64,000 nt of DNA from Cellulosimicrobium arenosum (GTDB taxonomy: Bacteria > Actinomycetota > Actinomycetes > Actinomycetales > Cellulomonadaceae). Positions within the stretch are counted from its first letter, which is position 1. Each line of letters starts with the position of its first letter. The notes below the pieces were generated by a model, which was not told where the DNA came from, made no database searches, and worked only from the letters and a program-made list of their open reading frames with translations. A program made the position numbers and the translations under genes. The DNA lies in contig NZ_JACYHB010000012.1 of assembly GCF_014837295.1 (NCBI RefSeq), positions 62,001 to 126,000 of the forward strand, in the 5' to 3' direction. This document shows positions 17,345 through 38,179 of the stretch, in pieces.

Positions 17345-17760
17345 TGATGATTCGTCGAGTAGACAAACTGGACTCTCGAAGTTCTCTGCTCTCGGAGCTC
17401 ACAGCCAGAGAATGCGGCCATGACAACGTCCGACACGGTGGGGCCGCTTCGCGAGGTAGTACCGCAGTCCGCCGAAGTAGTACCGCAGCCCGGCGAGGTA
17501 GTACCTGGATCCGCGGAAGGAGTCCGTGGTCGGTCGCACGGGCGAGCGGCGCGTGTCGCGCCCTGCATCCGCGCGTGTGCCCGACGCCGCGGGCCCGCCT
17601 CGTCGGAACGTGGCGGCCGGCGTCGGGCCGGGTCGATGTCGACGGCGTTCGCTCGCCATCTCCCTGGCGCAGCGACACCACGTCGCGGGGCTGCGGTACT
17701 ACTTCGCGGTATCGGGCTGTTGCTTCGCGGGCTGCGGTACTACGTCGGCGGACTGCGGTA
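17345..17760. other. Intergenic region carrying two repeat arrays, no supported gene
   Basis: This is the gap between the GH26-esterase gene and the lacI gene that ends at 17761. It contains two arrays of the 21-bp repeat in opposite orientation (17453-17505 and 17695-17767), separated by about 190 bp with no recognisable content. An open frame from 17420 passes through both arrays and into antisense of lacI. It encodes only repeat-derived heptads (EVVPQSA) and Arg/Pro-rich shadow sequence, so I do not call it a gene. Confidence 0.6.
17453..17505 (+). repeat. 21-bp-period tandem repeat array A (3 units)
   Basis: Cores at 17453-17463 (GAGGTAGTACC), 17474-17484 (GAAGTAGTACC) and 17495-17505 (GAGGTAGTACC) are spaced exactly 21 bp apart; spacers resemble GCAGTCCGCC. 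This is the only array not directly 3' of a same-strand gene. It is inverted relative to array B. Confidence 0.85.
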
Positions 17761-17767
17761 CTACTTC
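17695..17767 (-). repeat. 21-bp-period tandem repeat array B (3 clear units plus 1 degenerate)
   Basis: Inverted cores (GGTACTACYTC type) lie at 17757-17767, 17736-17746 and 17695-17705. A decayed unit around 17716-17726 fills the 41-bp gap. On the minus strand the array starts inside the end of lacI: the TAG stop at 17763-17761 is part of the first core. Confidence 0.85.
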
Positions 17768-18771
17768 GGCGGGGGGCGTTCGCCGGAGCCGCGGGGGACG
17801 AGGTGGGTGGGCATGCGGACGTGGACCGGTGCGCCGGCAGGGTCGTCGAGGCGGGCGAGCACGCGGCGGGCGACCATGCGGCCGAGCTCGACGGTGTCGT
17901 AGGCGACGACGCTGAAGCCGATCGCGTCGGCCAGGTCGAAGTCGTCGAAGCCGACGTAGGCGAGATCGTCGCGCATCGGCCCGAGCGCCCGGACGAGCGC
18001 GGCGCTGGCCTTGTTGTTGCCGGTGACGATCGCCGTCGGAGGCTCGGCCATGTCCATGAGGCCGAGGATCGACGCCTCGGTGCCCTGCCCGGGCGGGTCG
18101 TCGAGGCGCTCCCAGGCGCTCGTGTCCTCGACCCCCGCCTCGCGCAGCGCCTCGCGGTAGCCGGCGAGCCGCTCAACGTGCGTGTACAGGTGTGCCGGGT
18201 CGCACACGAACGCGATGCGGCGGTGCCCCAGTCGGGTCAGGGCGCGGACCGCCTCGGCCGTCCCCTCACGGTCGTCGAGCAGGACGGAGTCGGCGAGGAG
18301 GTTGCGCGCCGGCCGGTCGACCGTCACCACCGGGGTGCCGAGGCCACGCTCGCGCTCGAGGTAGGACTGGTCGTCCGCGATGGGGACGAGCGCGAGCGCA
18401 CGCACGCGCTGAGCGAGGAACGTCCCGACGACGCGATGCTCCTCCGCGGGGTCGTCCTCCGTCGCGCCGAGGACCATGGTCAGGCCGCTGCGCGAGAGCT
18501 CGCGCTCCATGCCCGCGGCGACCTTGACGTAGAACGGGTTGGTCAGGTCGCCGAGGACGAAGCCGACGGCAGTCGAGACCCCGCCGTGCCGCAGGCTGCG
18601 CGCGAGGAGGTTGGGCCGGAAGTGCAGGCGCTCCGCGGCGTCCTCGATGCGGCGCCGCGTGTCGGGCGAGACGTTCGTGCTCCCGTCGTAGACCCTGGAC
18701 ACGGTCTTGGCGCTGACCCCGGCGAGCCGGGCGACGTCCGCCAGGGTGGCGCGCTGCGGCGGCTTGTGCAC
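17761..18771 (-). CDS. LacI-family transcriptional regulator
   Basis: The protein has 336 residues, the usual LacI length. The N-terminal helix-turn-helix reads TLADVARLAGVSAKTVSRVY (about 9-28), followed by the hinge helix FRPNLLARSLRHG. The periplasmic-binding-protein-like effector domain (GFVLGDLTNPFYVKVAAGME) runs to the end. It probably senses a mannan-derived sugar and controls one of the two operator families nearby. I place the start at the GTG at 18771 because the HTH then starts at the normal position and TAGGGT ends 7 nt upstream, as in a leaderless promoter; the frame stays open to 18954 without support. Its TAG stop lies inside a 21-bp repeat. It is divergent from a second LacI gene. 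Confidence 0.9.
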   Translation of the reverse strand: MHKPPQRATLADVARLAGVSAKTVSRVYDGSTNVSPDTRRRIEDAAERLHFRPNLLARSLRHGGVSTAVGFVLGDLTNPFYVKVAAGMERELSRSGLTMVLGATEDDPAEEHRVVGTFLAQRVRALALVPIADDQSYLERERGLGTPVVTVDRPARNLLADSVLLDDREGTAEAVRALTRLGHRRIAFVCDPAHLYTHVERLAGYREALREAGVEDTSAWERLDDPPGQGTEASILGLMDMAEPPTAIVTGNNKASAALVRALGPMRDDLAYVGFDDFDLADAIGFSVVAYDTVELGRMVARRVLARLDDPAGAPVHVRMPTHLVPRGSGERPPPK

Positions 18772-18778
18772 AAGCGCG

Positions 18779-18784
18779 ACCCTA
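18779..18784 (-). promoter_or_regulatory. -10 box of a probable leaderless promoter (TAGGGT)
   Basis: Read leftward, TAGGGT ends 7 nt before the GTG start of the lacI gene at 18771. No Shine-Dalgarno sequence is present. Confidence 0.45.
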
Positions 18785-18822
18785 GCAGCGACGCCGATCG
18801 CGCCGGGCCCGCGCGAGGCGAG

Positions 18823-18851
18823 TTGACAGGTGAAGCGCTTCAGTGCACGGT
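18823..18851 (+). promoter_or_regulatory. Promoter/operator of the second lacI gene (TGAAGCGCTTCA)
   Basis: TTGACA at 18823-18828 is a consensus -35, and 17 bp later lies a weak -10 (CACGGT, 18846-18851). A perfect 12-bp palindrome TGAAGCGCTTCA (18831-18842) fills the spacer, which is the classical LacI/GalR operator form. Its position predicts autorepression of the rightward gene, and it may also affect the leftward lacI. Confidence 0.6.
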
Positions 18852-18928
18852 GTGCTCCGGTGGGTGCGCGCGGTCGCTGGACGTGCCCGTCGACGGCACG
18901 GCACAACGGGGAGAGGTGGGGAGAGGTC

Positions 18929-19948
18929 ATGGCGCGCATCACGATCGCCGACATCGCACGCCGCGCGGGCGTCTCGACGGGCGCGGTCTCCTACGCGCTC
19001 AACGACCGGCCCGGCGTGTCCGCCGCGACCCGTGAGCGCATCCTGGGCGTCGCCGCCGAGCTGGGCTGGGCGCCGAGCTCGGCCGCACGCTCGCTCTCGG
19101 GCGCGCGGACCGAGACCGTCGGCCTCGTGCTCGCCCGCGACCCGAGCACCCTCGGCTTCGAGTCGTTCTACATGCAGTTCATCGCGGGGATCGAGTCCGA
19201 GCTCGCGACGCGCTCGTACGGCCTGCTGCTCCAGGTCGTCCCGGATCTCGACGCGGAGATGCGGGCCTACCGCAAGTGGCGAGCCGCGCGGCGGGTCGAC
19301 GGCGTCGTCACGGTCGACCTCCGCCTCGACGACCCGCGCGTCGCATGGCTCTCGGAACCCGACGCCATCCCCGCCGTCGTGGTCGGCGACCCGGCCCTCG
19401 CCGGGGGAGTGACCAACGTCTGGACCGACGACGCGGCCGCCATGCGAGAGTCCGTGCGGTATCTCGCGACCGCCGGGCACCGACGGATCGCCCGTGTCTC
19501 GGGCGTCCAGAGCTTCGGCCACACCCACATCCGTGACGACGCGTTCCGCGAGGAGATCCGTCGTCTCGCCGTGCACGGGGAGATCGCCCGGACCGACTAC
19601 ACCGCCGACCAGGGGGCGACGGCGACCCGCGGTCTGCTGACCGGGATCGAGCGACCGTCCGCCGTGATCTACGACAACGACGTCATGGCGCTGGCGGGTC
19701 TCGGCGTCGCCCGCGAGCTCGGCGTGCGCGTCCCGGAGGAGCTCTCCGTCATCGCGTGGGACGACTCCCCGCTGTGCGAGGCGACCTTTCCCCGGCTGTC
19801 TGCCCTGAGCCACGACGTCACCCGGTTCGGTGCGCACGTCGCGCGCCGGCTCTTCGACCGTATCGACGGGACCGTGGGTGGCAGCTTCCTGGACTCCACG
19901 CCCACGCTGCGGCCGCGTGGTACCACGGCGCGGCACGCCGGCGCCTGA
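18929..19948 (+). CDS. LacI-family transcriptional regulator (second)
   Basis: The protein has 339 residues. The HTH is ITIADIARRAGVSTGAVSYA (about 4-23), then LNDRPGVSAATRERI, the hinge SSAARSLSG, and a ligand domain with the usual conserved C-terminal lines (LSVIAWDDSPLCEATFPRLS). The ATG at 18929 follows GGAGAGG by 3-4 nt and gives normal length. It reads away from the other lacI and toward the importer, so it is the best candidate for repressing the importer operon by way of the TGAAGCGCTTMA sites. The recognition residues (GAVSYALN) differ from the neighbour's (KTVSRVYD), so the two should bind different operators. Which binds which is inferred, not shown. Confidence 0.9.
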   Translation: MARITIADIARRAGVSTGAVSYALNDRPGVSAATRERILGVAAELGWAPSSAARSLSGARTETVGLVLARDPSTLGFESFYMQFIAGIESELATRSYGLLLQVVPDLDAEMRAYRKWRAARRVDGVVTVDLRLDDPRVAWLSEPDAIPAVVVGDPALAGGVTNVWTDDAAAMRESVRYLATAGHRRIARVSGVQSFGHTHIRDDAFREEIRRLAVHGEIARTDYTADQGATATRGLLTGIERPSAVIYDNDVMALAGLGVARELGVRVPEELSVIAWDDSPLCEATFPRLSALSHDVTRFGAHVARRLFDRIDGTVGGSFLDSTPTLRPRGTTARHAGA

Positions 19949-20124
19949 CGTCCGGACACCGGCCCGCGAGCCGGTCGGCCCAGCGCGGTCACCCGGCGGC
20001 CCGTGCGAGACCTGGCGATGCGACCTGGCCGCTCGATCTGACACCGTGGCCTGTCGCTGCAGCCCGGCACCGCAGCCGGTGCGTGCCGCCCCAGTCGTCG
20101 AGACCGAACCGTGATCAGCGATCG

Positions 20125-20154
20125 TTGACTTACACGAACTGAAGCGCTTAATCT
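20125..20154 (+). promoter_or_regulatory. Importer promoter with LacI-type operator (TGAAGCGCTTAA)
   Basis: -35 TTGACT (20125-20130), 18-bp spacer, -10 TAATCT (20149-20154). The palindrome TGAAGCGCTTAA at 20140-20151 occupies the spacer and runs into the -10, so a bound repressor would occlude the promoter. Confidence 0.65.
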
Positions 20155-20207
20155 CTGCCTATCGGCAATGGAGCAACGCTCGCGACGAGGTGATGCTGCC
20201 TCGAGGC

Positions 20208-20219
20208 TTAAGCGCTGCA
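20208..20219. promoter_or_regulatory. Second LacI-type operator in the importer leader (TTAAGCGCTGCA)
   Basis: Read on the other strand this is TGCAGCGCTTAA, 11 of 12 bases matching the upstream operator. The two centres are 68 bp apart. It lies in the leader, about 80 bp before the binding-protein start. Confidence 0.5.
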
Positions 20220-20299
20220 GAGCGGAGCTCCGTGCACGCGCTCGGTCAGCGATCACGCACCCGGGCACGAGTCAACGACGACGAGAGCGAGAGATCGAG

Positions 20300-21619
20300 A
20301 TGGCGAAGAGGCACATCCTGAGCGTGACGAGCGTGACGAGCGTGGCCGCTGCCACGGCGCTCCTGCTGGGGGCCTGCTCCGGCGGGTCGGACGACGGAGC
20401 GGGCGACGGCGACGAGCCGTCGGGGAGCATCACCGTGCTCACGAACCGCACGGACATCGTGGACACGGTCCTGCAGGACTACGTGGCCGAGTTCCAGCAG
20501 ACCTACCCGGACGTCGACGTCGAGTTCGAGGCGATCACCGACTACGAGGGCGACATGACCGTCCGGCTGAACTCGGGCGACTACGGCGACGTCCTGCTCG
20601 TCCCCAACACCGTGGACGCGGACCAGCTCTCGACCTTCTTCGAGCCTCTCGGCACCGTGGACGAGCTCGGGGAGAAGTACCGGTTCATCCACGAGAAGTC
20701 GTACGACGGCCAGGTGTACGGTCTCGCGACCTTCGGTACCGCCCTCGGCTACGTGCTGAACAAGCCGGTCTGGGAGAAGGCCGGCGTCACCGAGCCCCCG
20801 ACCACGCCCCAGGACTTCGTCGCGGCGCTCGAGGCGATCAAGGACACCTCGCCCGACGCCACCCCCTACTACACGAACTACGCCGACGGCTGGCCGTTGA
20901 CCCAGTGGCAGTCCAACCAGGGCTCGATCGACGGCCCCGAGGCCGTCAACATGCGCACCGAGCAGGACGCACCGTGGACGGAGGGCGAGGAGCAGTACGC
21001 GATCGACTCGCTGCTGTTCGACGTCGTCGCCGCAGGGGTCAGCGAGAAGGACCCCACCACGACCAACTGGGAAGAGTCCAAGAACCTCATCGGCAGCGGC
21101 CAGGTCGGTTCCATGGTGCTCGGCTCGTGGGCCGTGACCCAGATGCAGGACGCCGCCGAGGCGGCGGGTGCGGCGCGCGAGGACATCGGCTTCTGGCCGA
21201 TGCCGTGGCAGACCGACGGCGCCTTCCACAGCACGGTCAGCGGCGACTACAAGATCGCGGTCTCGAAGAACTCGGAGAACAAGGAGGCCGCGGAGGCGTG
21301 GCTGTACTGGTTCCTCGACGAGTCCGGCTTCGCCGCGAGCCAGGGCGGCATCGCGCCGCAGGTCGACGGCCAGACGCCCGAGACGCTCGCAGACTTCGAG
21401 ACCTATGGCGTCGAGGAGGTCGAGATCGCCCCGGCACCGGAGGGCGAGGAGAGCCTGCTCTCGGACATCTACAACGCTGCAGAGATCGACCTCAACGGTG
21501 ACCAGTTCCGCCGCGAGTACGTCGACATCGCCCGCGGAGCCGCGGACGGCAGCAAGGAGTCGTACTTCGCCGACCTCAACGCGCGCTGGGCAGAGGCCCG
21601 GGCCGAGGTCGTCGGCTGA
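20300..21619 (+). CDS. Sugar ABC transporter substrate-binding lipoprotein
   Basis: The protein has 439 residues. It has a short signal peptide with lipobox LLLGAC (lipidated Cys26), then a Gly/Asp-rich tether and a family-1 extracellular solute-binding fold (ITVLTNRTDIVDTVLQDYVAEFQQTYPDVDVEF at the start of the mature domain). It captures oligosaccharides at the cell surface for the two permeases downstream. Its place between mannanase and mannosidase genes suggests manno-oligosaccharides. No ATPase gene is present in the operon; a shared MsiK/MsmK-type ATPase elsewhere is the usual actinobacterial solution. The ATG at 20300 gives a normal signal peptide, but the ribosome site is weak. Confidence 0.9.
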   Translation: MAKRHILSVTSVTSVAAATALLLGACSGGSDDGAGDGDEPSGSITVLTNRTDIVDTVLQDYVAEFQQTYPDVDVEFEAITDYEGDMTVRLNSGDYGDVLLVPNTVDADQLSTFFEPLGTVDELGEKYRFIHEKSYDGQVYGLATFGTALGYVLNKPVWEKAGVTEPPTTPQDFVAALEAIKDTSPDATPYYTNYADGWPLTQWQSNQGSIDGPEAVNMRTEQDAPWTEGEEQYAIDSLLFDVVAAGVSEKDPTTTNWEESKNLIGSGQVGSMVLGSWAVTQMQDAAEAAGAAREDIGFWPMPWQTDGAFHSTVSGDYKIAVSKNSENKEAAEAWLYWFLDESGFAASQGGIAPQVDGQTPETLADFETYGVEEVEIAPAPEGEESLLSDIYNAAEIDLNGDQFRREYVDIARGAADGSKESYFADLNARWAEARAEVVG

Positions 21620-21626
21620 CGCGACG

Positions 21627-21656
21627 CGCCCGGCCCGCCCCACGGCGGGCCGGGCG
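21627..21656 (+). terminator. Intra-operon hairpin between binding-protein and permease genes
   Basis: A perfect 13-bp stem CGCCCGGCCCGCC/GGCGGGCCGGGCG with a 4-nt loop directly follows the binding-protein stop. In ABC sugar operons such stems usually attenuate or protect the upstream message, so that the binding protein is made in excess over the permeases. Confidence 0.65.
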
Positions 21657-21698
21657 TCCGTCAGCACCGACCCACGACAGACGAAGGAGGCGACTGCG

Positions 21699-22655
21699 AT
21701 GGCCGCGGTCACCGGACCTGCCGGCGCGCTCCGCACGAAGCCGCCGACCCCCCCGCGAGGGCGACGAGGACACCGGACGGACGCGCTCGGCTCGAGCGGC
21801 CGGCGCATCACGCCGTGGCTGTTCCTGCTCGCTCCGGTCGGGCTGCTGCTGGTCTTCACCTACGTGCCGGTCGCGAACATGGTGTGGTACAGCTTCACGT
21901 CCTGGGACGGGCTGGACCCCGTCAAGGAGCCGGTCGGCTGGCAGAACTACGTCGAGATCTTCACGAGGCCGGAGATCTTCCGTGTCTTCCTCGTCAGCCT
22001 CTACTACCTCGCCGGCGCGATGCTCCAGCTCGTGCTCGCGCTGTACTTCGCGACCGTGCTCAGCTTCAACACGCGGTTCCGGACCTGGTTCAAGGGGATC
22101 ATCTTCTTCCCGTACCTGATCAACGGCGTGGCCATCGGGCTGGTCTTCCTGTACTTCTTCCGCCCCGGCGGAACCCTCGACGCGCTGCTCGCGACGCTCG
22201 GGGTGGCCGAGCCGCCGCTGTGGCTCGGCGACCCGTCGATCGTGAACGTCTCGCTCGCCGCGACGAGCGTCTGGCGGTACATGGGGCTCAACTTCGTGCT
22301 GTTCCTCGGGGCGATCCAGTCCATCCCCAGCGAGCTGTACGAGGCGGCGGACCTCGACGGGGCGAACGCGTGGCAGAAGTTCCGGTTCATCATCGCGCCG
22401 GGCATCAAGCGCATCACCGGGCTGTCCGTCGTCCTCGCGGTCGCCGGCGCGCTCTCGGCGTTCGAGATCCCGTTCGTCATGACCGGGGGAGCGAACGGGT
22501 CGGAGACCTTCGTCATCCAGACCATCAACACGGCCTTCACGTTCTCCAAGGTGGGCCTCGCGTCCGCGATGGCGCTCGTGCTGCTCGTGATCGTCCTGAT
22601 CATCTCGTGGGTCCAGCGACGCCTGTTCCCCGACGACGGAGGTGAGCTCGTATGA
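21699..22655 (+). CDS. Sugar ABC transporter permease (MalF/UgpA type)
   Basis: The protein has 318 residues. An N-terminal basic cytoplasmic tail is followed by six predicted membrane helices starting at WLFLLAPVGLLLVFTYVP. The EAA loop that contacts the ATPase is present as EAADLDGANAWQKFRFIIAP. It forms the heterodimeric channel with the next gene product. AAGGAGG lies 9 nt before the ATG. Its TGA overlaps the next gene's ATG (ATGA), so translation is coupled. Confidence 0.93.
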   Translation: MAAVTGPAGALRTKPPTPPRGRRGHRTDALGSSGRRITPWLFLLAPVGLLLVFTYVPVANMVWYSFTSWDGLDPVKEPVGWQNYVEIFTRPEIFRVFLVSLYYLAGAMLQLVLALYFATVLSFNTRFRTWFKGIIFFPYLINGVAIGLVFLYFFRPGGTLDALLATLGVAEPPLWLGDPSIVNVSLAATSVWRYMGLNFVLFLGAIQSIPSELYEAADLDGANAWQKFRFIIAPGIKRITGLSVVLAVAGALSAFEIPFVMTGGANGSETFVIQTINTAFTFSKVGLASAMALVLLVIVLIISWVQRRLFPDDGGELV

Positions 22656-23653
22656 GCACGACGCCGACCCGCACCGGCGTGACCCCGACCGAGGCGTCGG
22701 CAGCGCGACCGGTGCCCAGCACGGACGGCGCCTCCTCCGCCGCGGCGGACCGTGGACCCGCGCCACGCGTCACCGGGACCGACCGGGTCCGGATGTCCGC
22801 CGCCGCGCTCACCCGAGGTGCGGGCCCGCTCCTCGGCCCGCTCGGCAAGGCGCTCAAGTACGCGTCCCTCGTCGCGGCCTGCGTGGTCGCGATCCTCCCC
22901 CTCGTCACCGTGTTCCTCGCGTCGTTCAAGACGCAGGACGAGTTCCGCGAGACGGGGCCCCTCGACGCGCCCGAGAGCTGGACCAACCTCGACAACTTCG
23001 TCACCGCGTTCACCAGGGGCGGGATGCTGCAAGGCTTCCTCAACACGACCATCATCCTCGTCGTGGCGCTCGCGGGGACGATCCTCATCGGCACGATGAC
23101 CGCCTACGCGATCGATCGGTTCGACTTCCGCGGACGCGGCCTCGTCGTCGGCGCCTTCCTGCTGGCGACGCTCGTCCCTGCCGTCACGACCCAGGTCGCG
23201 ACCTTCCAGATCGTCAGCGGTCTCGGTCTGTTCAACACGCGATGGGCCGCGATCGTCCTGTTCATGGGGACCGACATCATCTCCATCTACATCTTCCTGC
23301 AGTTCATGCGGTCGATCCCGCGGTCCCTCGACGAGGCGGCGATGCTCGACGGCGCGAACCGCCTCACGATCTACGCCCGGATCGTCTTCCCGCTGCTCAG
23401 GCCGGCGATCGCCACGGTCGTGATCATCAAGGGCATCGCCATCTACAACGAGTTCTACCTGCCGTGGCTCTACATGCCGAGCCGCGACCTCGGCGTCATC
23501 TCGACGTCGCTGTTCCGCTTCAAGGGCCCGTTCGGGGCCCAGTGGGAGGTGATCTCGGCCGGGGCGGTGCTCGTCATCATCCCGACGCTGGTCGCGTTCC
23601 TGCTGCTGCAGCGCTACATCTACAACGGACTAGTCTCAGGAGCCACCAAGTGA
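22652..23653 (+). CDS. Sugar ABC transporter permease (MalG/UgpE type)
   Basis: The protein has 333 residues, with about 70 residues of N-terminal hydrophilic extension (longer than usual for MalG-type permeases) before six membrane helices. The EAA loop is DEAAMLDGANRLTIYARIVFP. It pairs with the upstream permease. Its GGAGG lies within the upstream coding end, the start overlaps the upstream stop by 4 nt, and its own stop overlaps the mannosidase GTG. The binding protein, two permeases and mannosidase therefore form one operon. Confidence 0.93.
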   Translation: MSTTPTRTGVTPTEASAARPVPSTDGASSAAADRGPAPRVTGTDRVRMSAAALTRGAGPLLGPLGKALKYASLVAACVVAILPLVTVFLASFKTQDEFRETGPLDAPESWTNLDNFVTAFTRGGMLQGFLNTTIILVVALAGTILIGTMTAYAIDRFDFRGRGLVVGAFLLATLVPAVTTQVATFQIVSGLGLFNTRWAAIVLFMGTDIISIYIFLQFMRSIPRSLDEAAMLDGANRLTIYARIVFPLLRPAIATVVIIKGIAIYNEFYLPWLYMPSRDLGVISTSLFRFKGPFGAQWEVISAGAVLVIIPTLVAFLLLQRYIYNGLVSGATK

Positions 23654-26358: not shown

Positions 26359-26363
26359 CCCTC

Positions 26364-26401
26364 CTGCTCGCGGTCGGCCGTCAGCCGTCGGCCGCGAGCA
26401 G
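26364..26401. terminator. Bidirectional hairpin terminator
   Basis: CTGCTCGCGG at 26364-26373 pairs perfectly with 26392-26401. It lies between the converging mannosidase and maltokinase genes and includes the last codons and stop of the latter. Confidence 0.6.
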
Positions 26402-27929: not shown

Positions 27930-27935
27930 TATCGT
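27930..27935 (+). promoter_or_regulatory. -10 box of a leaderless promoter (TATCGT)
   Basis: TATCGT ends 6 nt before the ATG at 27942, in the 55-bp gap between the divergent mak and cyclase-like genes. No ribosome site is present. Confidence 0.55.
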
Positions 27936-27941
27936 CGATCC

Positions 27942-28964: not shown

Positions 28965-30700
28965 AAGTCGCGCGAGCCGCACGTGACCGCGACCTCGCCG
29001 GCGGTCGACACCGACGGGAACGGCGCGCCGCCGAACATGTCGTTCAGGTGCGAACCCGCGTACCCCGGGACCGTGATCGTGGCCGAGCGCGCGGTCGCGG
29101 ACAGGTTGGCCACGCACAGGATCGTCTCGTCCGCGGTGCGGCGCAGGTAGGCGAGGATCGAGTCGTTGTCGCAGTCGAGGGCGACGAAGTCCCCGGTGCC
29201 GAACGCCGGGTGCCCACGGCGGACCTTGAGCATGCCGTGCACCCAGTGCAGGAGGGACGTCGGCTGCTCGAGCTGCGACTCGACGTTGACGTGCCCGTAG
29301 TTGTGCACGAGCGACTGGATGAGCGGCAGGTAGAGCTTGCCGGGGTCGGCGGTCGAGAAGCCCGCGTTGCGGTCGGGCGTCCACTGCATGGGGGTGCGCA
29401 CCGCGTCGCGGTCGGGCAGCCAGATGTTGTCGCCCATCCCGATCTCGTCGCCGTAGTACAGGCACGGGCTCCCTGGCAGGGACAGCAGGAGCGCGTGGGC
29501 GAGCTCGACCTCCTTGCGCGAGTTGTCGAGCAGGGTCGCGAGCCGACGCCGGATCCCCACGTTCGCCCGCATGCGCGGGTCGTGGGCGTACCACCCGTAC
29601 ATCGACGCGCGCTCCTCGGTGGAGACCATCTCGAGCGTGAGCTCGTCGTGGTTGCGCAGGAACGTGCTCCACTGGGCGCCCGCGGGGATGTCGGGCGTGT
29701 CGGCGAGGATCTCGCGGATCTGGTTGGCGCGCTGGTCACGGATCGCGTAGTAGATGCGCGGCATCACGGGGAAGTGGAAGCACATGTGGCACTCCGGCTC
29801 CTCCGCGGTGCCGAAGTAGTCCACGACGTCGCGCGGCCACTGGTTCGCCTCCGCGAGCAGGATCCGGCCCGGGAACTCGTCGTCGACCATCCGCCGGACG
29901 CTGCGCAGGAAGTCGTGCGTGCGCGGCAGGTTCTCGCAGTTCGTGCCCTCCTCCTCGAAGAGGTACGGCACGGCGTCGAGCCGGAACCCGTCGACACCCA
30001 TCCGCAGCCAGAACCGTGCGACGTCGAGCATCGTCTCGGCGACGCGCGGGTTCTCGAAGTTGAGGTCCGGCTGGTGGGAGAAGAACCGGTGCCAGAAGTA
30101 CTGGCGCCGCACCGGGTCGAAGGTCCAGTTCGACGTCTCGGTGTCGACGAAGATGATGCGCGCGTCCTCGTACCGCGTGTTGTCGTCGCTCCACACGTAG
30201 AAGTCGCCGTAGGGGCCCTCGGGGTCCGCGCGCGACGCCTGGAACCACGGGTGCTGGTCCGACGTGTGGTTCATGACGAGGTCGACGACGACCCGGATGC
30301 CGCGCGCGTGCGCCTCGGCGACGAGCTCGCCGAAGTCCGCCGTCGTGCCGTACTGCGAGGCGATCGCGGTGAAGTCCGCGACGTCGTACCCGCCGTCCCG
30401 CAGCGGTGACGGGAAGAACGGGGGCAGCCACAACGCGTCGATGCCGAGCCACTGCAGGTAGTCGAGGCGGTCGATGAGCCCGCGCAGGTCGCCCGTGCCG
30501 GTGCCGTCCGAGTCGGAGAACGCGCGCACGAGCACCTCGTAGAACACCGCGGTGCGGTACCAGTCCGGGTCGTCGGACAGCCCGGGACGCGAGTCGGCCG
30601 GGGGGACGGGCTGGCGGCGCGGGGGAAGGGCCGCGACCGGCACGGGGGCGGTCGGGGGATGCCCGTGCGCGGGTCCCGGGGCGGGACGGGGCGTGCTCAT
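28910..30700 (-). CDS. treS: Trehalose synthase TreS (maltose alpha-D-glucosyltransferase, GH13)
   Basis: The protein has 596 residues, the normal TreS length. It interconverts trehalose and maltose, so trehalose can feed maltokinase and GlgE. After a Pro-rich N-terminal 45 residues come [32 protein letters not shown], the nucleophile region [14 protein letters not shown], the acid/base LLAEANQWP, and [13 protein letters not shown], all characteristic of TreS. No fused maltokinase domain is present; mak is a separate gene 1 kb away. AAGGAGG precedes the ATG. The start overlaps the glgE stop by 4 nt, so glgE-treS is an operon. Confidence 0.96.
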
Positions 30701-32820
30701 GGCGCCTCCTTCTCGTGCACGACGTGGACGACGTGCGCGACCTGGCCCCACGGCTCGAGCCGCACGTAGACGTTCGAGCCCCAGCCGTAGCTCGTGCCGG
30801 ACAGCTCGTCGTGCGCGACGAACGTCGGCGCCCACGGGTCGTCGTCCGGCTGCGGGGCGGGGAGCCCCAGCGCCACGAGGTCGAGCTCGACGTTCGACTC
30901 CTGCGCCGAGTGCGGGTCGAGGTTCACGACGACGACGACCGTGTCCGCCAGCCCGGTCGGGGAGTGCTCGGCCGGCAGGTGGCGCGAGAACGCGAGCACC
31001 TGGTCGTTCGTCGTGGGGTGCACGGTGAGGTTGCGCAGCTGACGCAGCGCAGGGTGGTCGCGGCGGATCTCGTTGAGCCGGGTGAGCAGCGTCGAGATCC
31101 CGATCTCCTCGGCGGCCGCCCAGTCGCGCGGCTTGTACTCGTACTTCTCGTTGTCGATCTGCTCCTCCACGCCGGGCCGTGGCACGTTCTCCACGAGCTC
31201 GTACCCCGAGTAGATGCCCCACGTCGGGGAGCCGAGGGCGGCGAGCACCGCCCGGATCGCGAACCCCGCCACCCCGCCGTGCTGCAGGTAGGGCGGCAGG
31301 ATGTCGTGCGTCGTCGGCCAGAAGCTCGGCCGCATGTACGCGCCGCCGGGTCCGGAGACCTCCTCCAGGTACTCCGCGAGCTCCTCGCGCGTGTTGCGCC
31401 AGGTGAAGTACGTGTACGACTGGTGGAACCCGATACGCGCCAGCGTGTGCATCATCGCGGGCTTGGTGAACGCCTCCGACAGGAAGACCACCTCGGGGTT
31501 CGTCCGCCGCACCTCGGCGAGCAGCCACTCCCAGAACTCGAGCGGCTTGGTGTGCGGGTTGTCCACGCGGAACGCGGTCACGCCCCGCGCGATCCACACG
31601 CGCACGACCCGCAGGACCTCGGCATAGATGCCCTGCGGGTCGTCGTCGAAGTTCAGCGGGTAGATGTCCTGGTACTTCTTCGGCGGGTTCTCCGCGTACG
31701 CGATCGACCCGTCGACGCGCGTCGTGAACCACTCGGGGTGCTCGGCGACCCAGGGGTGGTCGGGCGAGCACTGCAGAGCGAGGTCGAGCGCGACCTCGAG
31801 CCCGTTGCGCCGGGCCTCCTTGACGAACGCCTTGAACGTGCGCTCGCTGCCCAGCTCCGGGTGGAACGCGTCGTGACCACCGTCCGTCGAGCCGATCGCG
31901 TACGGGCTGCCCGGGTCGCCGGGGAGCGCGGTGAGCGAGTTGTTGCGGCCCTTGCGGTGGGTCGTCCCGATCGGGTGGACGGGCGTGAGGTAGACGACGT
32001 CGAAGCCCATCGCCGCGATCGCCGGCAGGCGACGGGCCGCGCTCGTGAACGTGCCCGAGCGCCACCGCCCGTCCTTGAGCTGCCGCGCACCCTCGGACCG
32101 CGGGAACATCGCGTACCACGAGCCCGCGAGCGCGAGCGTGCGCTCGACCCGCAGCGGGTAGGTGGCCGACGCGCTGACGTGCTCGCGCAGCGGAGCGCGG
32201 TCCAGGGCGTCGCGCACCTCGGGGGACGTCGCCGCGGCGAGGCGGACCAGTGCCGGGCGACCCGGGTCGGCGAGGGCCGTCGCGGCGTCGGCGAGGGTCC
32301 GGGCGTCGTCGGGCCGGCGGGCCGGCACCGACGCGTCGCCGAGGACGCGCTCGAAGAGCCGGACGCCCTCGGCCAGCATGAGGTCGACGTCGACGCCCGC
32401 CTCGACCTTGATCGTCGCGTCGTGCGCCCACGTGGCGTACGGGTCGCCCCACGCCTCGACGCGCAGCGACCACTCGCCCTCGACGTCGGGGTGGAGCGCC
32501 GCGCGGAACCGGTCGAGGCCGGGGGCGACGTCGACCATCGGCGCCGTGTGCTCCGTGCCGTCCGGGGCGACGAGGACCGCGGTCGCGGCGACCGCGTCGT
32601 GGCCCTCGCGGAAGACCGTCGCCTCGACCGGGACCATCTCCCCGACGACGGCCTTGGCCGGCCACCGGCCGCCCTCGACGACCGGGGACACGTCCAGCAC
32701 CGGGATGCGTCCGATCGGCGCGGGCGGTGCGGGTGCGGGTGCGGGTACGACGGGGACGGGGCGCACGGGGTCCGGGACGGAGGAGGACAGCGGCGCTCGG
32801 GCCGCTCGGGTCGACGTCAC
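30697..32820 (-). CDS. glgE: Alpha-1,4-glucan:maltose-1-phosphate maltosyltransferase GlgE
   Basis: The protein has 707 residues. It extends alpha-glucan chains with maltosyl units from maltose-1-phosphate, the actinobacterial alternative to GlgA. Its features are [20 protein letters not shown] at the start of the conserved region, [18 protein letters not shown], the nucleophile Asp in [17 protein letters not shown], the acid/base Glu in [10 protein letters not shown], and [10 protein letters not shown]. The N-terminal 30 residues are Pro/Val-rich. The GTG at 32820 is favoured because TACGTT ends 6 nt upstream as a leaderless -10. It is the first gene of glgE-treS and is divergent from glgP. 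Confidence 0.96.
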
Positions 32821-32826
32821 CCCCAC

Positions 32827-32832
32827 AACGTA
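32827..32832 (-). promoter_or_regulatory. -10 box of the leaderless glgE promoter (TACGTT)
   Basis: Read leftward, TACGTT ends 6 nt before the GTG at 32820. The divergent glgP promoter lies about 110 bp away, so both directions of the glucan pathway start from one short region. Confidence 0.55.
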
Positions 32833-32938
32833 TCCAGGGAGAGGGGTGCGTGGCACGCGGGACGCCCTGCTCCTCAACATTCATCAGAGCGTTACAGGCC
32901 CGGAACACGACCTGTCGCCCGACGTCGGCCGAGGTGCG

Positions 32939-32944
32939 TACGCT
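32939..32944 (+). promoter_or_regulatory. -10 box of the leaderless glgP promoter (TACGCT)
   Basis: TACGCT ends 7 nt before the GTG at 32952, with no ribosome site between. It mirrors the glgE promoter on the other strand. Confidence 0.55.
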
Positions 32945-32951
32945 CGTCCCC

Positions 32952-35570
32952 GTGAGAGCGATCCGACGGTTCACCGTCCGCACCCTGCTTCCTGCCGAGC
33001 TGCGCGACCTCGACGAGCTGGCCCACAACCTGCGCTGGTCGTGGCACGCCCCCTCGCGCGAGATCTTCGCCGGTATCGACCCCGACCTGTGGGCCGAGGT
33101 CCACGGGGACCCCGTCGCGCTGCTCGGCGCGCTGGGCCCCGAGCGCCTCGGCGTGCTCGCCGCCGACGGCGCGTTCGTCGAGCGCGTGCGCGTGGCCGTG
33201 ACGGACCTGCACCACTACCTGCAGGACGACCTGTGGTACCAGCGCCGGGCGTCGTCGGGCGTCGGCACCGCCGACGCGCTGCCGAGCGCGATCGCGTACT
33301 TCTCGCCCGAGTTCGGCATCACGTCCGTGCTCCCGCAGTACTCCGGTGGCCTCGGCATCCTGGCCGGGGACCACCTGAAGAGTGCGAGCGACCTGGGCGT
33401 GCCGATCGTCGGGGTCGGGCTGCTGTACGGCGCCGGGTACTTCAAGCAGTCCCTCACGCGCGACGGCTGGCAGGTCGAGACGTACCCGCTGCTCGACCCG
33501 GACGGGCTGCCCCTCACCCTGCTGCGCGACGACGACGGCACCCCCGCCCGCGTCTCGCTCGACCTGCCCGGCGGGCGCGTCCTGCACGCGCACGTGTGGG
33601 CCGCGGCCGTCGGCCGCGTGCCGCTGCTGCTCCTGGACACCGACGTGCCGGGGAACGACGAGGCCGCCCGGAAGGTGACCGACCGGCTCTACGGGGGCGG
33701 CGGTGAGCACCGCCTGCAGCAGGAGCTGCTGCTCGGCGTCGGCGGTGTGCGCGCGCTGCGGCTGTGGTCGCGGGTGACGGGGGCGCCCGTGCCCGAGGTC
33801 TACCACATGAACGAGGGCCACGCGGGCTTCCTCGGGGTCGAGCGCATCCGTGAGCTCGTGACGCAGGGACTGACCTTCGACGAGGCGCTCGAGGCCGTGC
33901 GCGCCGCGACCGTCTTCACCACGCACACGCCCGTGCCCGCCGGGATCGACCGGTTCGGTCGCGACCTGATCGGACAGTACTTCGGCGGCGACATGGCGGT
34001 GGACGGGCTCCCCGTCGACCGGATCCTGGCGATGGGCGCCGAGGACTACGACGGCGGCGACCCCACCGTGTTCAACATGGCCGTCATGGGCCTGCGGCTC
34101 GGCGGACGCGCCAACGGGGTCTCGCTCCTGCACGGCCAGGTGTCGCGCGGCATGTTCGAGGGGCTGTGGCCCGGGTTCGACGCCCGCGAGGTCCCCATCA
34201 CGTCCGTGACCAACGGCGTGCACTCGCCCACGTGGGTCGACCCGGCGTTCGCCGCGCTCGCGGCCGAGCGGCTCGGGCTCGACGAGCTGACGGCCGACGA
34301 CGCGTCGTCGGGCTGGCTCCGCACGGGGCGCGAGGGCGCCGGCGACGGCCCCGCGGTGAGCGACGGCGAGCTGTGGGCGATCCGGCGCGAGATGCGCGGC
34401 CGGCTCGTCGACGAGGCCCGACGCCGCGTCCACCGGTCCTGGCGCGAGCGCGGGGCGAGCCCGGCCGAGACCGGCTGGATCGACGACATCCTCTCGCCCG
34501 ACGTCCTGACCATCGGGTTCGCGCGTCGGGTCCCCACCTACAAGCGGCTCACCCTCATGCTGCGCGACCCGGACCGGCTCAAGGCGCTCCTGCTGCACCC
34601 CGAGCGGCCCGTGCAGCTCGTGGTCGCCGGCAAGTCGCACCCGGCGGACGACCAGGGCAAGCGCCTCATCCAGCAGCTCGTGCGGTTCACGGACGACCCG
34701 GAGGTGCGCCACCGGATCGTGTTCCTGCCCAACTACGACATCGCGATGGCGCAGGCGCTGTACCCGGGCTGCGACGTGTGGCTCAACAACCCGCTGCGCC
34801 CCCTGGAGGCGTCGGGGACCTCGGGCATGAAGTCCGCGCTCAACGGCGGGCTCAACCTGTCCATCCTGGACGGGTGGTGGGACGAGTGGTTCGACGGCGA
34901 GAACGGCTGGGCCATCCCGACCGCGGACGGGGTCGAGGACCCGGACCGCCGCGACGACCTCGAGGCGGCCGCGCTGTACGACCTCGTCGAGCAGGAGGTC
35001 GCGCCGCGCTTCTACGGCCGTGACGCCGACGGTGCCCCCGGTCGCTGGCTCGAGATGGTCCGGCACACGCTCGCGACGCTCGGGCCCAAGGTGCAGGCGA
35101 CGCGGATGGTCGGCGAGTACGTCACGCGCCTCTACGCCCCCGCCGCCGTCGCGGGCCGTGCGCTCGCGGGCGACGGGCTGGAGCCGGCGCGCGAGCTCGC
35201 GCACTGGAAGCGGTCGGTGCGCGACGGGTGGGACCGGGTGCGGGTCGACCACGTCGACTCGAGCGGTGTGGGGGAGGTTCCCCAGGTCGGGGACCTGCTC
35301 ACCGTCCGCGCGTACGTCTCGCTCGGTGAGCTGCAGCCCGGCGACGTCGAGGTGCAGGTGGTGCACGGCCACGTCACCGAGGAGGACGTCATCGACGCGT
35401 ACACGACGCGCCCCCTGGCGCTCGCCGAGACGTTCGAGGCGGGTCGCTACGCGTTCGCGGGCGAGGTCGCGCTCGAGGCGTCGGGCCCGTTCGGCTACAC
35501 GGTCCGCATCGTGCCGCGACACGCCGGCCTGCCGAGCCCCGCGGAGCTGGGCCTGGTCGCCAACGCCTGA
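32952..35570 (+). CDS. glgP: Alpha-glucan (maltodextrin/glycogen) phosphorylase GlgP
   Basis: The protein has 872 residues, the actinobacterial-type GlgP with the extended N-terminal domain ([20 protein letters not shown]). It releases glucose-1-phosphate from the ends of alpha-1,4-glucans. It has [28 protein letters not shown] in the N-terminal domain, [17 protein letters not shown], and the PLP-binding Lys627 in [17 protein letters not shown], followed by ILDGWWDEW. The start is a GTG read from a leaderless promoter. A 21-bp repeat array with a 16-bp hairpin follows within 12 bp of the stop. Confidence 0.95.
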
Positions 35571-35581
35571 CACCTCTCGCC

Positions 35582-35660
35582 GAGGTAGTACCGCTGCGGG
35601 TCGAGGTAGTACCGCGGTGCGCCGAGGTAGTACGCCGGTCCGGTGCCGGCGTACTACCTC
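35582..35660 (+). repeat. 21-bp-period tandem repeat array C (3 forward units, 1 inverted)
   Basis: Forward cores at 35582-35592, 35603-35613 and 35624-35634 are exactly 21 bp apart and begin 11 bp after the glgP stop. The inverted core at 35650-35660 pairs with the third forward unit. The array lies on the sense strand of glgP. Confidence 0.88.
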
Positions 35661-35661
35661 G
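35623..35661. terminator. 16-bp hairpin built from two repeat units
   Basis: 35623-35638 and 35646-35661 are perfectly complementary around a 7-nt loop (TCCGGTG). The arms are a forward and an inverted copy of the 21-bp repeat core. Its position just after glgP fits a terminator or 3'-end stabiliser. Confidence 0.7.
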
Positions 35662-35809
35662 CGCGCCGTCGTGCCCGACGGCGCGTGCTTGGCCCGACGA
35701 CGCGAGTGCGGCGCCGTGGCGGGAGCCGGGCTCGACCACAGGCAGGCCGTCGTCCACAAGCGTGCGCAGCGACGTCCTACGCCCTCGTCGGTCGCGCCAC
35801 CCTGCTGGC

Positions 35810-36871
35810 ATGACGGATACCGACTCTCCCCACGAGCCCCCGACCGACCCACCGGACGGACCCGCGGCCCGTCCGACGTCGGGCCGGACGACCCGTTCGC
35901 GGCGGGGCGCGTCCGGTTCCCGGCCGCGCGGGCGCCTCACCGCCGACAACCGCGGTCCGCGTCGGGTCCCGAGCGCGGTCCCGTACGCTCCTGAACGGCG
36001 CGGTGAGCTCGCTGAACGTGCGCGCGAAGGCTCGCTGACGAGGGTCCGTCGCGGCGTGTACCTCGAGTCGCAGGACGTCGACGTGCGGGTTCGCGAAGAG
36101 CTCCTGCTCGCCGAGGTCCGCGGCGTCGTGGACACGACCACCGCACCGTTCTGGGTGAGCCACGACACCGCCGCGCTGATCTGGGGGTGCTGGACCCGGC
36201 ACCTGCCGCCGTTCGTCCACGTGACGCAGCTCGTGAACCCGCGCGTCGAGCGCGTACGTCAGCCGGCGCTGCGGCGGCACTGGACCGACCTGCCGGACCG
36301 TGACCGCGCCCGTGTCGGCGACGTCCCGGTGACGGGCCTGGAGCGGACCGTCGTCGACTGCGCGCGGTCGTTGCCGCCGGAACGCAGTCTCGTCGTCGTC
36401 GACTCCGCGCTGCGCATGGGCGCCGACCGACGGATCATCGACCAGATCCTGCTCGAGTCCGCGGGCAAGCGGGGAGTGGTGCGGGCCCGGCGTGCCCTGG
36501 AGCTCGCGGACGCGCGCTCGGAGTCGCCGGGCGAGACGCTGGTCCGGCTCGCCGCGACCTTGGGCGGGATCCCGACCCCCGAGCCGCAGATCGCGGTCCC
36601 GACGCCGCTCGGTGCGTACGTCGTCGACCTGGCGTGGCCGGAGCTGCGCATCGCGATCGAGTTCGACGGCGCGGTGAAGTACTCCGGCGGCGGGGACGGC
36701 GACCCCGCGCAGGTGCGGTACGACGAGCGCGCCAGAGAGCGCGCGCTGGTCGCGGCGGGATGGACGGTGGTCCGCTTCACCTGGGACGAGCTCGGCGACC
36801 CCGTCGCCGTCGGTCAGCGGCTGGCAGAGGTGCGCATCGAGGTGTCGATGCAGCGCCGTCCGCCGAGGTAG
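35810..36871 (+). CDS. DUF559-type nuclease-fold protein with AbiEi-like N-terminal domain
   Basis: The protein has 353 residues. The first 55 or so are Pro/Arg-rich and disordered. A winged-helix region follows that resembles the N-terminus of AbiEi-type antitoxins (LAERAREGSLTRVRRGVYLE, then FWVSHDTAALIWGC). The C-terminal 110 residues look like the DUF559/very-short-patch-repair endonuclease fold: LAWPELRIAIEFDGAVKYSG with a central Glu-Phe-Asp-Gly, then RYDERARERALVAAGWTVVRF. Such proteins are common lone genes in actinomycetes and their function is not established. No toxin partner adjoins it. The TAG stop lies within a 21-bp repeat core and a second array precedes the gene. ATG 35810 is the first start beyond the repeat region. 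Confidence 0.72.
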   Translation: MTDTDSPHEPPTDPPDGPAARPTSGRTTRSRRGASGSRPRGRLTADNRGPRRVPSAVPYAPERRGELAERAREGSLTRVRRGVYLESQDVDVRVREELLLAEVRGVVDTTTAPFWVSHDTAALIWGCWTRHLPPFVHVTQLVNPRVERVRQPALRRHWTDLPDRDRARVGDVPVTGLERTVVDCARSLPPERSLVVVDSALRMGADRRIIDQILLESAGKRGVVRARRALELADARSESPGETLVRLAATLGGIPTPEPQIAVPTPLGAYVVDLAWPELRIAIEFDGAVKYSGGGDGDPAQVRYDERARERALVAAGWTVVRFTWDELGDPVAVGQRLAEVRIEVSMQRRPPR

Positions 36872-36940
36872 CACGCCTGTCCGCCGAGGTAGTACCTCGG
36901 TCCACGGTGGCACTACCTCGGCCCACGGCGGTACTACCCC
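36865..36940. repeat. 21-bp-period tandem repeat array D (2 forward, 2 inverted units)
   Basis: Forward cores lie at 36865-36875 and 36886-36896, inverted cores at 36909-36919 and 36930-36940; both pairs are spaced exactly 21 bp. The first forward core supplies the TAG stop of the nuclease-like gene (36869-36871) and the last inverted core supplies the TAG stop of the convergent membrane-protein gene (36936-36934). The two middle units form a near-perfect 14-bp hairpin. Confidence 0.9.
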
Positions 36941-38100
36941 GGCTGGGCGAGGAGGTCGAGGTAGCGGGAGCGGGTCCGGACGACGTCGGCGAGCTGGGCC
37001 TGGATCCCGTCGACGAACTCCTCGCGGTAGACGGCGTCCACCTGGACGGAGATGGCGTAGTAGAGACCGGTGAACGTCGCGATCGCCACGGACACGCGCA
37101 GCAGCGTCTGCGTGACGACGAGGTCCGCGCCGCCGACGACGCCACCGCCCGCGAGCGAGATGGTGCGCTCCCACGTGCCGCCGTCGACGTCCCACAGCGC
37201 CATGACCTCCGGCGTCACGGTGAGCGTCCCGAGCGCCATGAAGAACAGCCCCATCCCGAGGCTCACGACGAGCACCTGGAGCAGCTGGCTCGTCGCGATC
37301 ATCGCGGCGAGGTTCGCGCGCTGCGGCCGGGTGAAGCGGGTGGCGCGCTCGTGCTCGGGCAGCGCGGTGGCGGTCGCCGCGAGGGCCTCGCGCGCCTCGC
37401 CGGGGACGCGCAGCGCCACGAAGACGACGACGAGCAGCGCGAAGAACGCGCCCAGCACGACGTCCGCGACGCCGTGCGTCCGGTCGAAGACCTGCCACAC
37501 CTCGGCGTTGTAGAACAGCACGAGCGAGAACACGAGCAGCAACGGGAGGAGCCGCACGAGCCGCAGGAGCGACGCGCCCAGCTCGTCGACCACCCGCGCG
37601 AGCCCCCACCAGAGCGACGACAGGATCCCGTACCCGACGACCACGCGCACCGCTCCCAGCAGCACGAGGTTCCCGACGACCGTGAGCAGCGCGTCCGCCC
37701 ACTGCCCCCCGAACACGAGCGGCAGGAGCGCGGGCACGAGGACGAAGAACGCGAGCTCGGGCAGCCCGACGGACTGCGGCAGCGTCGACCACCGCCGGCC
37801 GCGGAGCACGTTGAGGCCGGCGTACGCGGCGGCGACGATCCCGGCGCCGCCGAGCAGCGCGAGCACGTTCGCCCACGCGGGCCAGCCGGACCGCACTGCG
37901 CCGGTGAGCTCGGCGAGCAGGACGACCAGCAGGAACGGCGCCGAGCGGCCGAACACGTCGCGGTCGAGCGAGTGGCCCTCCACCAGGAGCGGCAGCCCGT
38001 TGCGCCGGAACTCACGTTCGCACCCGGCGACGTCGAGCGCGGGGCCCACGGGCACGGTGAGGTCGCGCGCTGGCGGGGACGCGTCGTCGGGCACGGTCAT
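36934..38100 (-). CDS. Polytopic membrane protein of unknown function
   Basis: The protein has 388 residues with about seven to eight hydrophobic segments, the first after a 55-residue cytoplasmic N-terminus (FLLVVLLAELTGAV) and the last near VSVAIATFTGLYYAISV. A hydrophilic loop in the middle (VPGEAREALAATATALPEHE) separates two membrane blocks. No transporter or enzyme motif was recognised. The ATG is supported by TAGGGT 8 nt upstream. Its stop lies inside a repeat core, and another array lies just upstream of the gene. Confidence 0.75.
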   Translation of the reverse strand: MTVPDDASPPARDLTVPVGPALDVAGCEREFRRNGLPLLVEGHSLDRDVFGRSAPFLLVVLLAELTGAVRSGWPAWANVLALLGGAGIVAAAYAGLNVLRGRRWSTLPQSVGLPELAFFVLVPALLPLVFGGQWADALLTVVGNLVLLGAVRVVVGYGILSSLWWGLARVVDELGASLLRLVRLLPLLLVFSLVLFYNAEVWQVFDRTHGVADVVLGAFFALLVVVFVALRVPGEAREALAATATALPEHERATRFTRPQRANLAAMIATSQLLQVLVVSLGMGLFFMALGTLTVTPEVMALWDVDGGTWERTISLAGGGVVGGADLVVTQTLLRVSVAIATFTGLYYAISVQVDAVYREEFVDGIQAQLADVVRTRSRYLDLLAQPG

Positions 38101-38108
38101 GACCGGTG

Positions 38109-38114
38109 ACCCTA
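38109..38114 (-). promoter_or_regulatory. -10 box of a probable leaderless promoter (TAGGGT)
   Basis: Read leftward, TAGGGT ends 8 nt before the ATG at 38100 of the membrane-protein gene. The repeat array E begins 13 bp further upstream, where a -35 would lie. Confidence 0.5.
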
Positions 38115-38126
38115 CCGGCCGGCCGG

Positions 38127-38179
38127 GGTACTACCTCGGCCCACTGCGGTACTACCTCGGTCCACTGCGGTACTACCTC
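38127..38179 (-). repeat. 21-bp-period tandem repeat array E (3 units)
   Basis: Inverted cores GGTACTACCTC at 38127-38137, 38148-38158 and 38169-38179 are identical and exactly 21 bp apart, with spacers of the form GGCCCACTGC. On the minus strand the array lies 33 bp after the stop of the FAD dehydrogenase gene. Confidence 0.9.

Follow-up and report, generated by a model that had tools for sequence, protein, structure and literature searches.

The window (the whole 64,000-nucleotide stretch of Cellulosimicrobium arenosum DNA that was analyzed) carries five arrays of a 21-bp repeat. Based on a search allowing one mismatch, GAGGTAGTACC has 18 matches in the window, whereas shuffled sequences gave a mean of 0.28 and a maximum of 2. 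The match at 41325 is a lone copy outside the arrays, and those at 36886+ and 36888- are one palindromic unit scored on both strands. With the unit at 36865, which carries two mismatches to GAGGTAGTACC, the arrays comprise 17 distinct units, the number originally predicted. The arrays and associated features are as follows.

17453..17505, + strand: putative distal (inverted) arm of the composite element whose other arm is 17695-17767; 3 units
17506..17694, no strand: interior of the composite element, with GCCCGACG/CGTCGGGC-type inverted sequence, resembling relatives' interiors by eye
17695..17767, - strand: sense arm of the composite element, on the 3' side of the LacI-family gene 17761-18771(-), whose stop is the outermost unit's TAG; 3 units are recognisable and a decayed one is seen by eye
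35582..35634, + strand: sense arm, 3 units, beginning 12 bases beyond 32934-35570(+), a carbohydrate phosphorylase gene (DUF3417)
35624..35660, + strand: central hairpin GAGGTAGTACG-CCGG-loop-CCGG-CGTACTACCTC
35661..35780, no strand: possible decayed family-wide core hairpin (TGCCCGACGGCG by eye)
36865..36940, no strand: two units per arm (+ + - -), which together occupy the space separating the convergent genes 36056-36871(+) (DUF559) and 36934-38100(-), whose stops are both the outermost units' TAG
38127..38179, - strand: sense arm on one side only, with 3 units, lying 34 bases from the end of 38213-39955(-), a FAD-binding protein gene (P0001)

The most plausible role of the 17453 array is that of distal arm in a composite element whose proximal arm is 17695-17767; in the predicted fold of 17430-17790 on the - strand (-219 kcal/mol) the two arms are paired. 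The conserved hairpin apex of relatives' interiors was absent from 17506..17694 at E<=1. A weak 12-base apex match (E 2.3) lies at 35717-35728, within the possible decayed core hairpin.

The unit as a hairpin arm

Each 21-bp unit makes up one arm of a hairpin at gene 3' ends. In its minimal form the element is a 17-bp hairpin, and the 21-bp arm consists of the 17 stem bases plus 4. Units occur in tandem as the sense arm, the antisense arm or both, and the arms flank either a short loop or an interior of 0.2-0.7 kb. Three points go beyond the original prediction: that the units are hairpin arms, that a stop codon can lie within a unit, and that elements can be composite.

Units were identified as GAGGTAGnnCC with up to one mismatch; GAGGTAG and CC are conserved across units, in part by construction because this was the search pattern. 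Among 90 elements from 11 Cellulosimicrobium genomes, including the window's own, 248 of 279 same-strand neighbours (<=30 bp apart) lie at 21 bp and 25 at 20 bp; the period recurs in relatives. Within the window, the exact spacing that had been claimed holds inside runs but not from 17695 to 17736, a step of 41 bp with a decayed unit between by eye. Neighbouring 21-base units are identical in 33 of the 248 pairs. Of 82 elements, 41 had inverted arms (+ then -), 37 were one-sided and 4 were mixed, the one-sided count being inflated in part because diverged far arms were missed and left unmerged. The opposite order, - then +, was seen in 2 elements. Arrays with one arm only lack the partner needed to make the hairpin in cis. 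Interiors vary in length and content among elements, and short-loop hairpins have none.

We evaluated pairing in 27 of the 28 central hairpins. The inner 4 bp pair at 3.33 of 4 positions, compared with 2.67 (sd 0.14) when partners are shuffled. The outer spacers match their mirrored partners no better than shuffled ones (0.617 and 0.610), so selection of an arm-arm stem along its full length is unsupported. Like intrinsic terminators, the hairpins are GC-rich and placed at gene 3' ends. A T-rich tract within 12 bases was found in 0 of the 27, in both directions, and canonical intrinsic terminators were rejected for this reason; at element edges, U-tracts occur in 1 and 1 of the 90 elements. 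At the 36865 site a two-tier hairpin between convergent genes is kept in six species with modest covariation, in an alignment of 6 of 17 genomes that were picked for the two-tier fold, a selection that leans towards structure. Some minimal hairpins of this kind probably act as bidirectional 3'-end or terminator hairpins that lack a U-tract.

A separate core hairpin accompanies 26 of the 90 elements, is enclosed by 8 of the 11 spaced two-armed elements, and covaries strongly. Its alignment used 22 of 26 non-redundant copies, leaving out L147, L156, L178 and one L213 copy, which pair less well (0.46 to 0.75); the effect is also present in all 49 copies, unselected. When eight loci were scanned with Rfam models at E<=1, only rRNA in one of them (L201) was matched and the core hairpin was not. 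It is a strongly covarying hairpin motif of the bacterial family that falls outside the Rfam matches in the scanned loci, and it is the older component. The tally of core contexts includes some sites twice.

Gene ends, core variants and distribution

Most arrays had been described as directly 3' of a gene and in its sense direction. This placement extends beyond the window, although the 17453 array is not itself directly 3' of a gene. With genes called by our own codon-usage caller rather than from annotation, 82 of the 90 elements (3 at edges and 5 intragenic were dropped) lie in 36 convergent, 42 codirectional and 4 divergent gaps, against 20, 106 and 54 among background gaps >=30 bp. Gene 3' ends are favoured (chi-square p 1.7e-10). 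The unit's TAG is the stop codon in 32 of 114 gene-end contacts, and 32 of 33 gene-end overlaps are at exactly -6, that is, at this TAG. U-lacking 3'-end hairpins whose stem contains a stop codon deserve flagging. The expectation that no array lies inside a gene needs amending, since units overlap the ends of 17761-18771(-), 36056-36871(+) and 36934-38100(-), and 5 of the 90 elements, all in relatives, lie within called coding sequence. Backup in-frame stops were rejected as the cause of the 21-bp period in downstream arrays because, of 46 sense arrays within 100 bp past the stop, 15 have the unit TAG in frame, against 17 and 14 for the two alternative frames.

The nn positions are TA (TACC) in one lineage and AG (AGCC) in most others examined. 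The near-palindromic core noted in the window is accordingly a property of TACC-core genomes and not of the family; the widespread AGCC variant no longer has it. The four TACC-rich genomes cluster on a one-gene tree (16 rows), which requires one change (support 68/91). G005 falls outside this group, yet it has TACC pairs at two loci. The nn counts for G000, G005, G011, G015 and G016 are biased, since the TACC pattern was used to retrieve their loci; the unbiased contrast is that between the TACC-pair search and the any-core search, the latter among the matches listed. Where arrays are coding, they specify heptapeptide linkers in tandem, and the reading direction is antisense to the unit. In two homologous protein pairs, in-frame array linkers occupy approximately the same place, one genome having the TACC core and the other AGCC. 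TACC cores in one lineage and AGCC cores in others at the same orthologous sites, coding linkers included, offer a natural experiment in concerted evolution, and make the spread and homogeneity of small repeats that have no known transposase directly testable.

The general unit pattern is present in 15 of 17 Cellulosimicrobium genomes, with up to 142 matches per genome, in 0 of 204 other genomes of the same bacterial family, and in 1 of 396 genomes of an order sample, that one being the source genome. Elements were selected via pattern matches, and the places in G003 and G007 are among the 18 of 21 and 18 of 51 matches listed. At one orthologous site followed through the 17 genomes, the array is present in some and absent in several species, with no clear target duplication by eye. 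Viral contigs gave zero unit-pattern matches, and one interior (L106) was unmatched among 72,556 plasmid records and 50,697 from phages, leaving a phage or plasmid origin unsupported. The RAYT transposase profile PF01797 (Y1_Tnp), the sole spreading-agent profile searched, matched 0 of 17 Cellulosimicrobium genomes and 5 of 14 known genomes used as a control; REP elements mobilised by RAYT were rejected on this basis. No publication on these repeats was found in open-licence PubMed Central.

Among matches outside Cellulosimicrobium, 12 loci were inspected, two of which, L143 and L163, represent a single Isoptericola array. Two Rhodococcus loci (L173, L175) have short GTAGTACC tandem runs that start at a called gene's TAG stop, and a Mycobacterium locus (L145) has a GTAGTACC tandem run by eye, with no called gene there. 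Some of the remainder (L150, L157, L165, L166, L182, L187 and L196) are AT-rich or inside a called gene.

Explanations and known systems

The three-way interpretation offered originally (protein-binding array, 3'-end RNA element or spreading repeat) is partly supported. We think it rather probable that the arrays are BOX/REP-like spreading palindromic repeats of Cellulosimicrobium that are tolerated, and in part co-opted, where genes end. Spreading is suggested by the scattered sites, the absence at an orthologous site in several species and the lineage-specific cores. The family would spread to gene 3' ends, which tolerate insertion, and undergo turnover there; an inserted arm could provide the TAG stop, as the position of the TAG indicates. 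Tandem arms may arise by slippage, given the identical neighbouring units, and repeated copying between sites would produce the likeness of cores within a genome. Some minimal hairpins, such as that at 36865, may have been retained over long periods, and the two-tier conservation together with the core-hairpin covariation may mean more function than tolerance implies.

Dedicated bidirectional terminators or mRNA 3'-end stabilisers, with a long arm-arm stem selected as RNA, are unlikely as the general explanation. Extra arms would then strengthen termination or supply ribosome-free pairing partners at the stop codon. The sense placement at 3' ends, the covarying central hairpins and the hairpin kept in six species fit, as does the account of Streptomyces clavuligerus, in which 353 of 535 highly structured 3' ends lack a U-tract (PMC8269248). 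Against this stand the missing T-rich tracts (27/27), the outer spacers that behave as shuffled ones, the one-sided elements (partly missed far arms), the species with no array at the orthologous site and the intragenic elements.

A DNA- or RNA-binding factor that reads the unit at 21-bp phasing, with the core following its specificity, would explain the steady period, the conserved GAGGTAG and CC, and a TA/AG switch that includes coding linkers and fits one gene-tree branch. We regard it as distinctly unlikely, since the dyad symmetry of the core, from which protein binding had been argued, is not kept, 21 bp is also seven codons and a slippage unit, and strand-specific 3'-end placement is unexpected for a plain DNA site. 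In-frame linkers and slippage account for the period at least as well as helical phasing. It is very doubtful that a sequence-specific factor reads the units behind genes and switched specificity once in the TACC lineage, dragging along dispersed units, linkers included. If true, the units would make up a polar 3'-end array that depends on a protein, comparable to the Sal-box/TTF-I arrays that end Pol I transcription; we know of no such array from bacteria. Tn7-like elements have several transposase-binding sites per end, and the arms might likewise form the termini of a non-autonomous transposon (MITE), the long forms being whole and the one-sided arrays remnants. The + then - order of 41 of the 82 elements and the same core hairpin inside 8 of 11 spaced pairs would fit; the variable interiors, short-loop hairpins with none, the negative Y1_Tnp and L106 searches and the orthologous site with no clear duplication make this highly improbable.

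The preferred spreading family resembles known bacterial interspersed repeats in kind, but its build is unusual. Rickettsia palindromic elements also occur in frame inside proteins; compared by description only, the Cellulosimicrobium counterparts are tandem heptapeptide linkers antisense to the unit. REP/BIME sequences, associated with RAYT transposases, are described as short extragenic palindromes that are numerous and occur in either orientation (PMC2817692). Copy number, palindromy, both orientations and a GTAG tetranucleotide are shared, whereas in REP/BIME a GTAG/GGAG foot precedes an imperfect palindrome and here GTAG is inside the stem GAGGTAG, with tandem half-palindromes at 21 bp and no Y1_Tnp match. 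The U-lacking (I-shaped) hairpins of GC-rich bacteria are likewise GC-rich 3'-end stem-loops, but are described as a class of 3' end (PMC8269248) and not as dispersed repeats with tandem arms. SPRITE of Streptococcus pneumoniae, a terminator-like repeat with an 18-bp duplex near the 3' ends of convergent genes (PMC3049150), is similarly placed and close to the 17-bp stem in length; its duplex is followed by a U-rich tract, in contrast to 0 of our 27 hairpins.

BOX of S. pneumoniae and S. suis is a modular interspersed repeat with a variable-number tandem sub-module; it is over-represented between convergent genes, encodes the neighbour's stop in 36 of 58 overlapping CDSs, carries open frames in its large forms, and has been read as probably parasitic (PMC3049150). 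Its tandem boxB lies between boxA and boxC, whereas the Cellulosimicrobium tandem units are hairpin halves outside the loop or interior and not a module between two unique flanking modules. Compared in architecture and placement rather than in sequence, the two share a tandem module, enrichment between convergent genes and a stop codon supplied by the repeat.

The 21-bp unit and its hairpin arms

The original prediction of five intergenic 21-bp arrays between window positions 17453 and 38179 holds: the motif lies at those places at a frequency far above chance, and the arrays contain 17 distinct units, provided that a two-mismatch unit at 36865 is counted. Those at 17453 and 17695 appear to be the two arms of a single element: in the predicted minus-strand fold of 17430-17790 (-219 kcal/mol) they pair with each other.

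The 21-bp unit reads GAGGTAG-nn-CC-nn-GGTC, then 4 bases; variants of its centre include the TACC and AGCC cores. Across 248 units from 11 genus genomes, conservation is at least 90% at positions 1-7 and 10-11, which belong to the search definition, and at positions 15 and 21, which do not. Neighbouring units are 21 bp apart in 248 of 279 cases and 20 bp apart in 25. In a hairpin, the unit supplies the 5' arm; 28 short-loop hairpins were found. In 27 of these, pairing at the four innermost positions is 3.33 of 4, versus 2.67 with shuffled partners (sd 0.14; maximum of 2000 shuffles, 3.11). Outer spacers match their mirrored partners no better than chance, aligned from outside (0.617 versus 0.610) or from inside (0.615 versus 0.596; 12.5% of shuffles equally high). 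This suggests that the tandem arms arose by duplication of an arm, not by co-selection of one long stem.

Distribution of the unit and its cores

Among 17 genomes of the GTDB genus containing Cellulosimicrobium, five have exact TACC pairs 21 bp apart (control, 0).

Exact TACC-pair matches per genome
G000 (the window's own genome, 3.95 Mb): 19
G005: 3
G011: 21
G015: 55
G016: 8

The TACC-rich G000, G011, G015 and G016 form one group on a single-gene tree (16 rows; one change; 68/91); G005 lies outside it and has TACC pairs at only two loci. In most of the remaining genus genomes the unit is built alike around a different core (GAGGTAGAGCC or GAGGTAGAACC). A general unit pattern has matches in 15 of the 17 genus genomes (at most 142 per genome; control, 0) and in none of the 204 remaining family genomes; in the order sample, 1 of 396 genomes matched, the window's own. 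Family-wide, exact TACC pairs occur in 6 of 221 genomes, the sixth having one match and fitting Isoptericola sp. QY 916. One Isoptericola genome holds a complete array (L143 / L163; 5 plus and 3 minus units, mostly at 20-bp spacing, between convergent genes), perhaps acquired by transfer. Short tandem GTAGTACC runs with a 21-bp period, starting at a TAG stop codon, were seen in Rhodococcus (L173:2555, L175:2192) and, by eye, in Mycobacterium (L145:290), possibly a convergent case.

Gene ends, coding copies and turnover

Ninety elements were collected from 11 genus genomes. The 82 with called genes on either side lie in 36 convergent, 42 codirectional and 4 divergent gaps, compared with 20, 106 and 54 among element-free gaps of at least 30 bp (chi-square, p = 1.7e-10). 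Of 114 gene-end contacts, 84 have an outermost unit oriented in the sense of the gene, and in 32 the stop codon is the unit's TAG, with one further overlap at -27. TAG stops are in excess at contacts within 60 bp (41 of 89, versus 74 of 360 for all called genes; adjacent versus rest, p = 1.4e-10), largely the same fact as the stop overlap because 32 of the 41 are the unit's own TAG. The frame of sense arrays further downstream is random (15, 17, 14). By eye, the 3' ends of several genes with arrays look alike (TACGACGCCCTGGACTGC..TGA and similar; L069:4388, L069:9103, L075:4703, L120:3148, L136:3076, L141:3024); these genes are perhaps paralogues that took the array along.

Five of the 90 arrays fall within long reading frames that score as coding on either flank, as in-frame heptapeptide repeats read antisense; four lie between protein domains.

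Coding arrays by locus (Pfam)
L113, L256: heavy-metal P-type ATPase, between HMA and E1-E2_ATPase
L139, L260: xanthine dehydrogenase-like protein, between Fer2_2 and Ald_Xan_dh_C
L267: within a molybdopterin oxidoreductase domain match

The first two rows are pairs of close homologues (72% and 79% identity) in which the array occupies roughly the same position. In each pair the array peptide has GTTS (TACC core) in one protein and GSTS (AGCC core) in the other, so the core differs between lineages even where a terminator role is implausible.

The 38127 site was compared by eye across 17 genomes. TACC units are present in G000, other or decayed units in G001, G004, G005, G009, G012 and G014, and variant hairpins or units in G002 and G013. 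G003 has one decayed unit at most, the G015 gap is longer and array-free, and the gap is short and without an array in G006, G007, G008, G010, G011 and G016. At the 36865 site, a 75-base two-tier hairpin is kept in six species. Its cells are 90.1% paired, versus 35-52% when slid and 88.3% with shuffled partners (26 of 500 reach the observed value). In four pairs both bases have changed (75 of 500 shuffles equally high) and the covariation score is 0.154 versus 0.117 (sd 0.018; 10 of 500). Support from pairing and covariation is modest.

The core hairpin and known systems

A separate, older core hairpin is enclosed by 8 of 11 spaced two-armed elements, lies inside or within 300 bp of 26 of the 90 elements, and is detected as DNA in all 17 genus genomes. 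Its conserved apex reads CCATCCG-stem-CTCGTnCCTCG-stem-TCCCGCCAGrCCCrCCACGAC genus-wide (L106:3002-3190; an alignment of 22 of 26 non-redundant copies). The long stems vary in sequence among copies and stay complementary: the outer 24-base stem is 90% paired, versus 72% with shuffled partners (49 copies), and the covariation score, taken on 22 copies, is 0.476 versus 0.123 (sd 0.016; 0 of 500 shuffles equally high), with 88 double-sided changes and 5 one-sided (G-U type). With a covariance model the hairpin is detected in 41 of the 220 family genomes, which span 9 of 25 genera, and in 3 of 394 from a class sample. Of 13 loci in other genera, 8 have it about 5 to 28 bp away from the 3' end of a gene. 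Rfam gave no match at E<=1 across 8 loci scanned, five of them with the core hairpin. Another repeated hairpin, about GGCGAGCAGGTGATCTGGGCTCGTCC...CACCTGCTCGCC, was seen by eye near the core element (L207, L208, L209, L224).

Since G-U intermediates are lacking, maintenance of the core hairpin at the DNA level, for example by template switching (PMC8794818), fits the data as well as selection does. Its even orientation in codirectional gaps (15 sense, 15 antisense, some sites counted twice) argues against a simple RNA function that depends on strand. For the repeat family as a whole, we infer spread without a known agent. Minimal and long-kept copies may plausibly act as U-lacking 3'-end hairpins (PMC8269248). 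The boldest reading, binding of the units by a specific factor, is improbable.

The closest known systems are the BOX and SPRITE repeats of pneumococcus (PMC3049150), which share convergent-gene enrichment, tandem modules and repeat-supplied stop codons. The Cellulosimicrobium repeats differ from them, as described there, in build, with tandem arms outside and a loop or hairpin inside.
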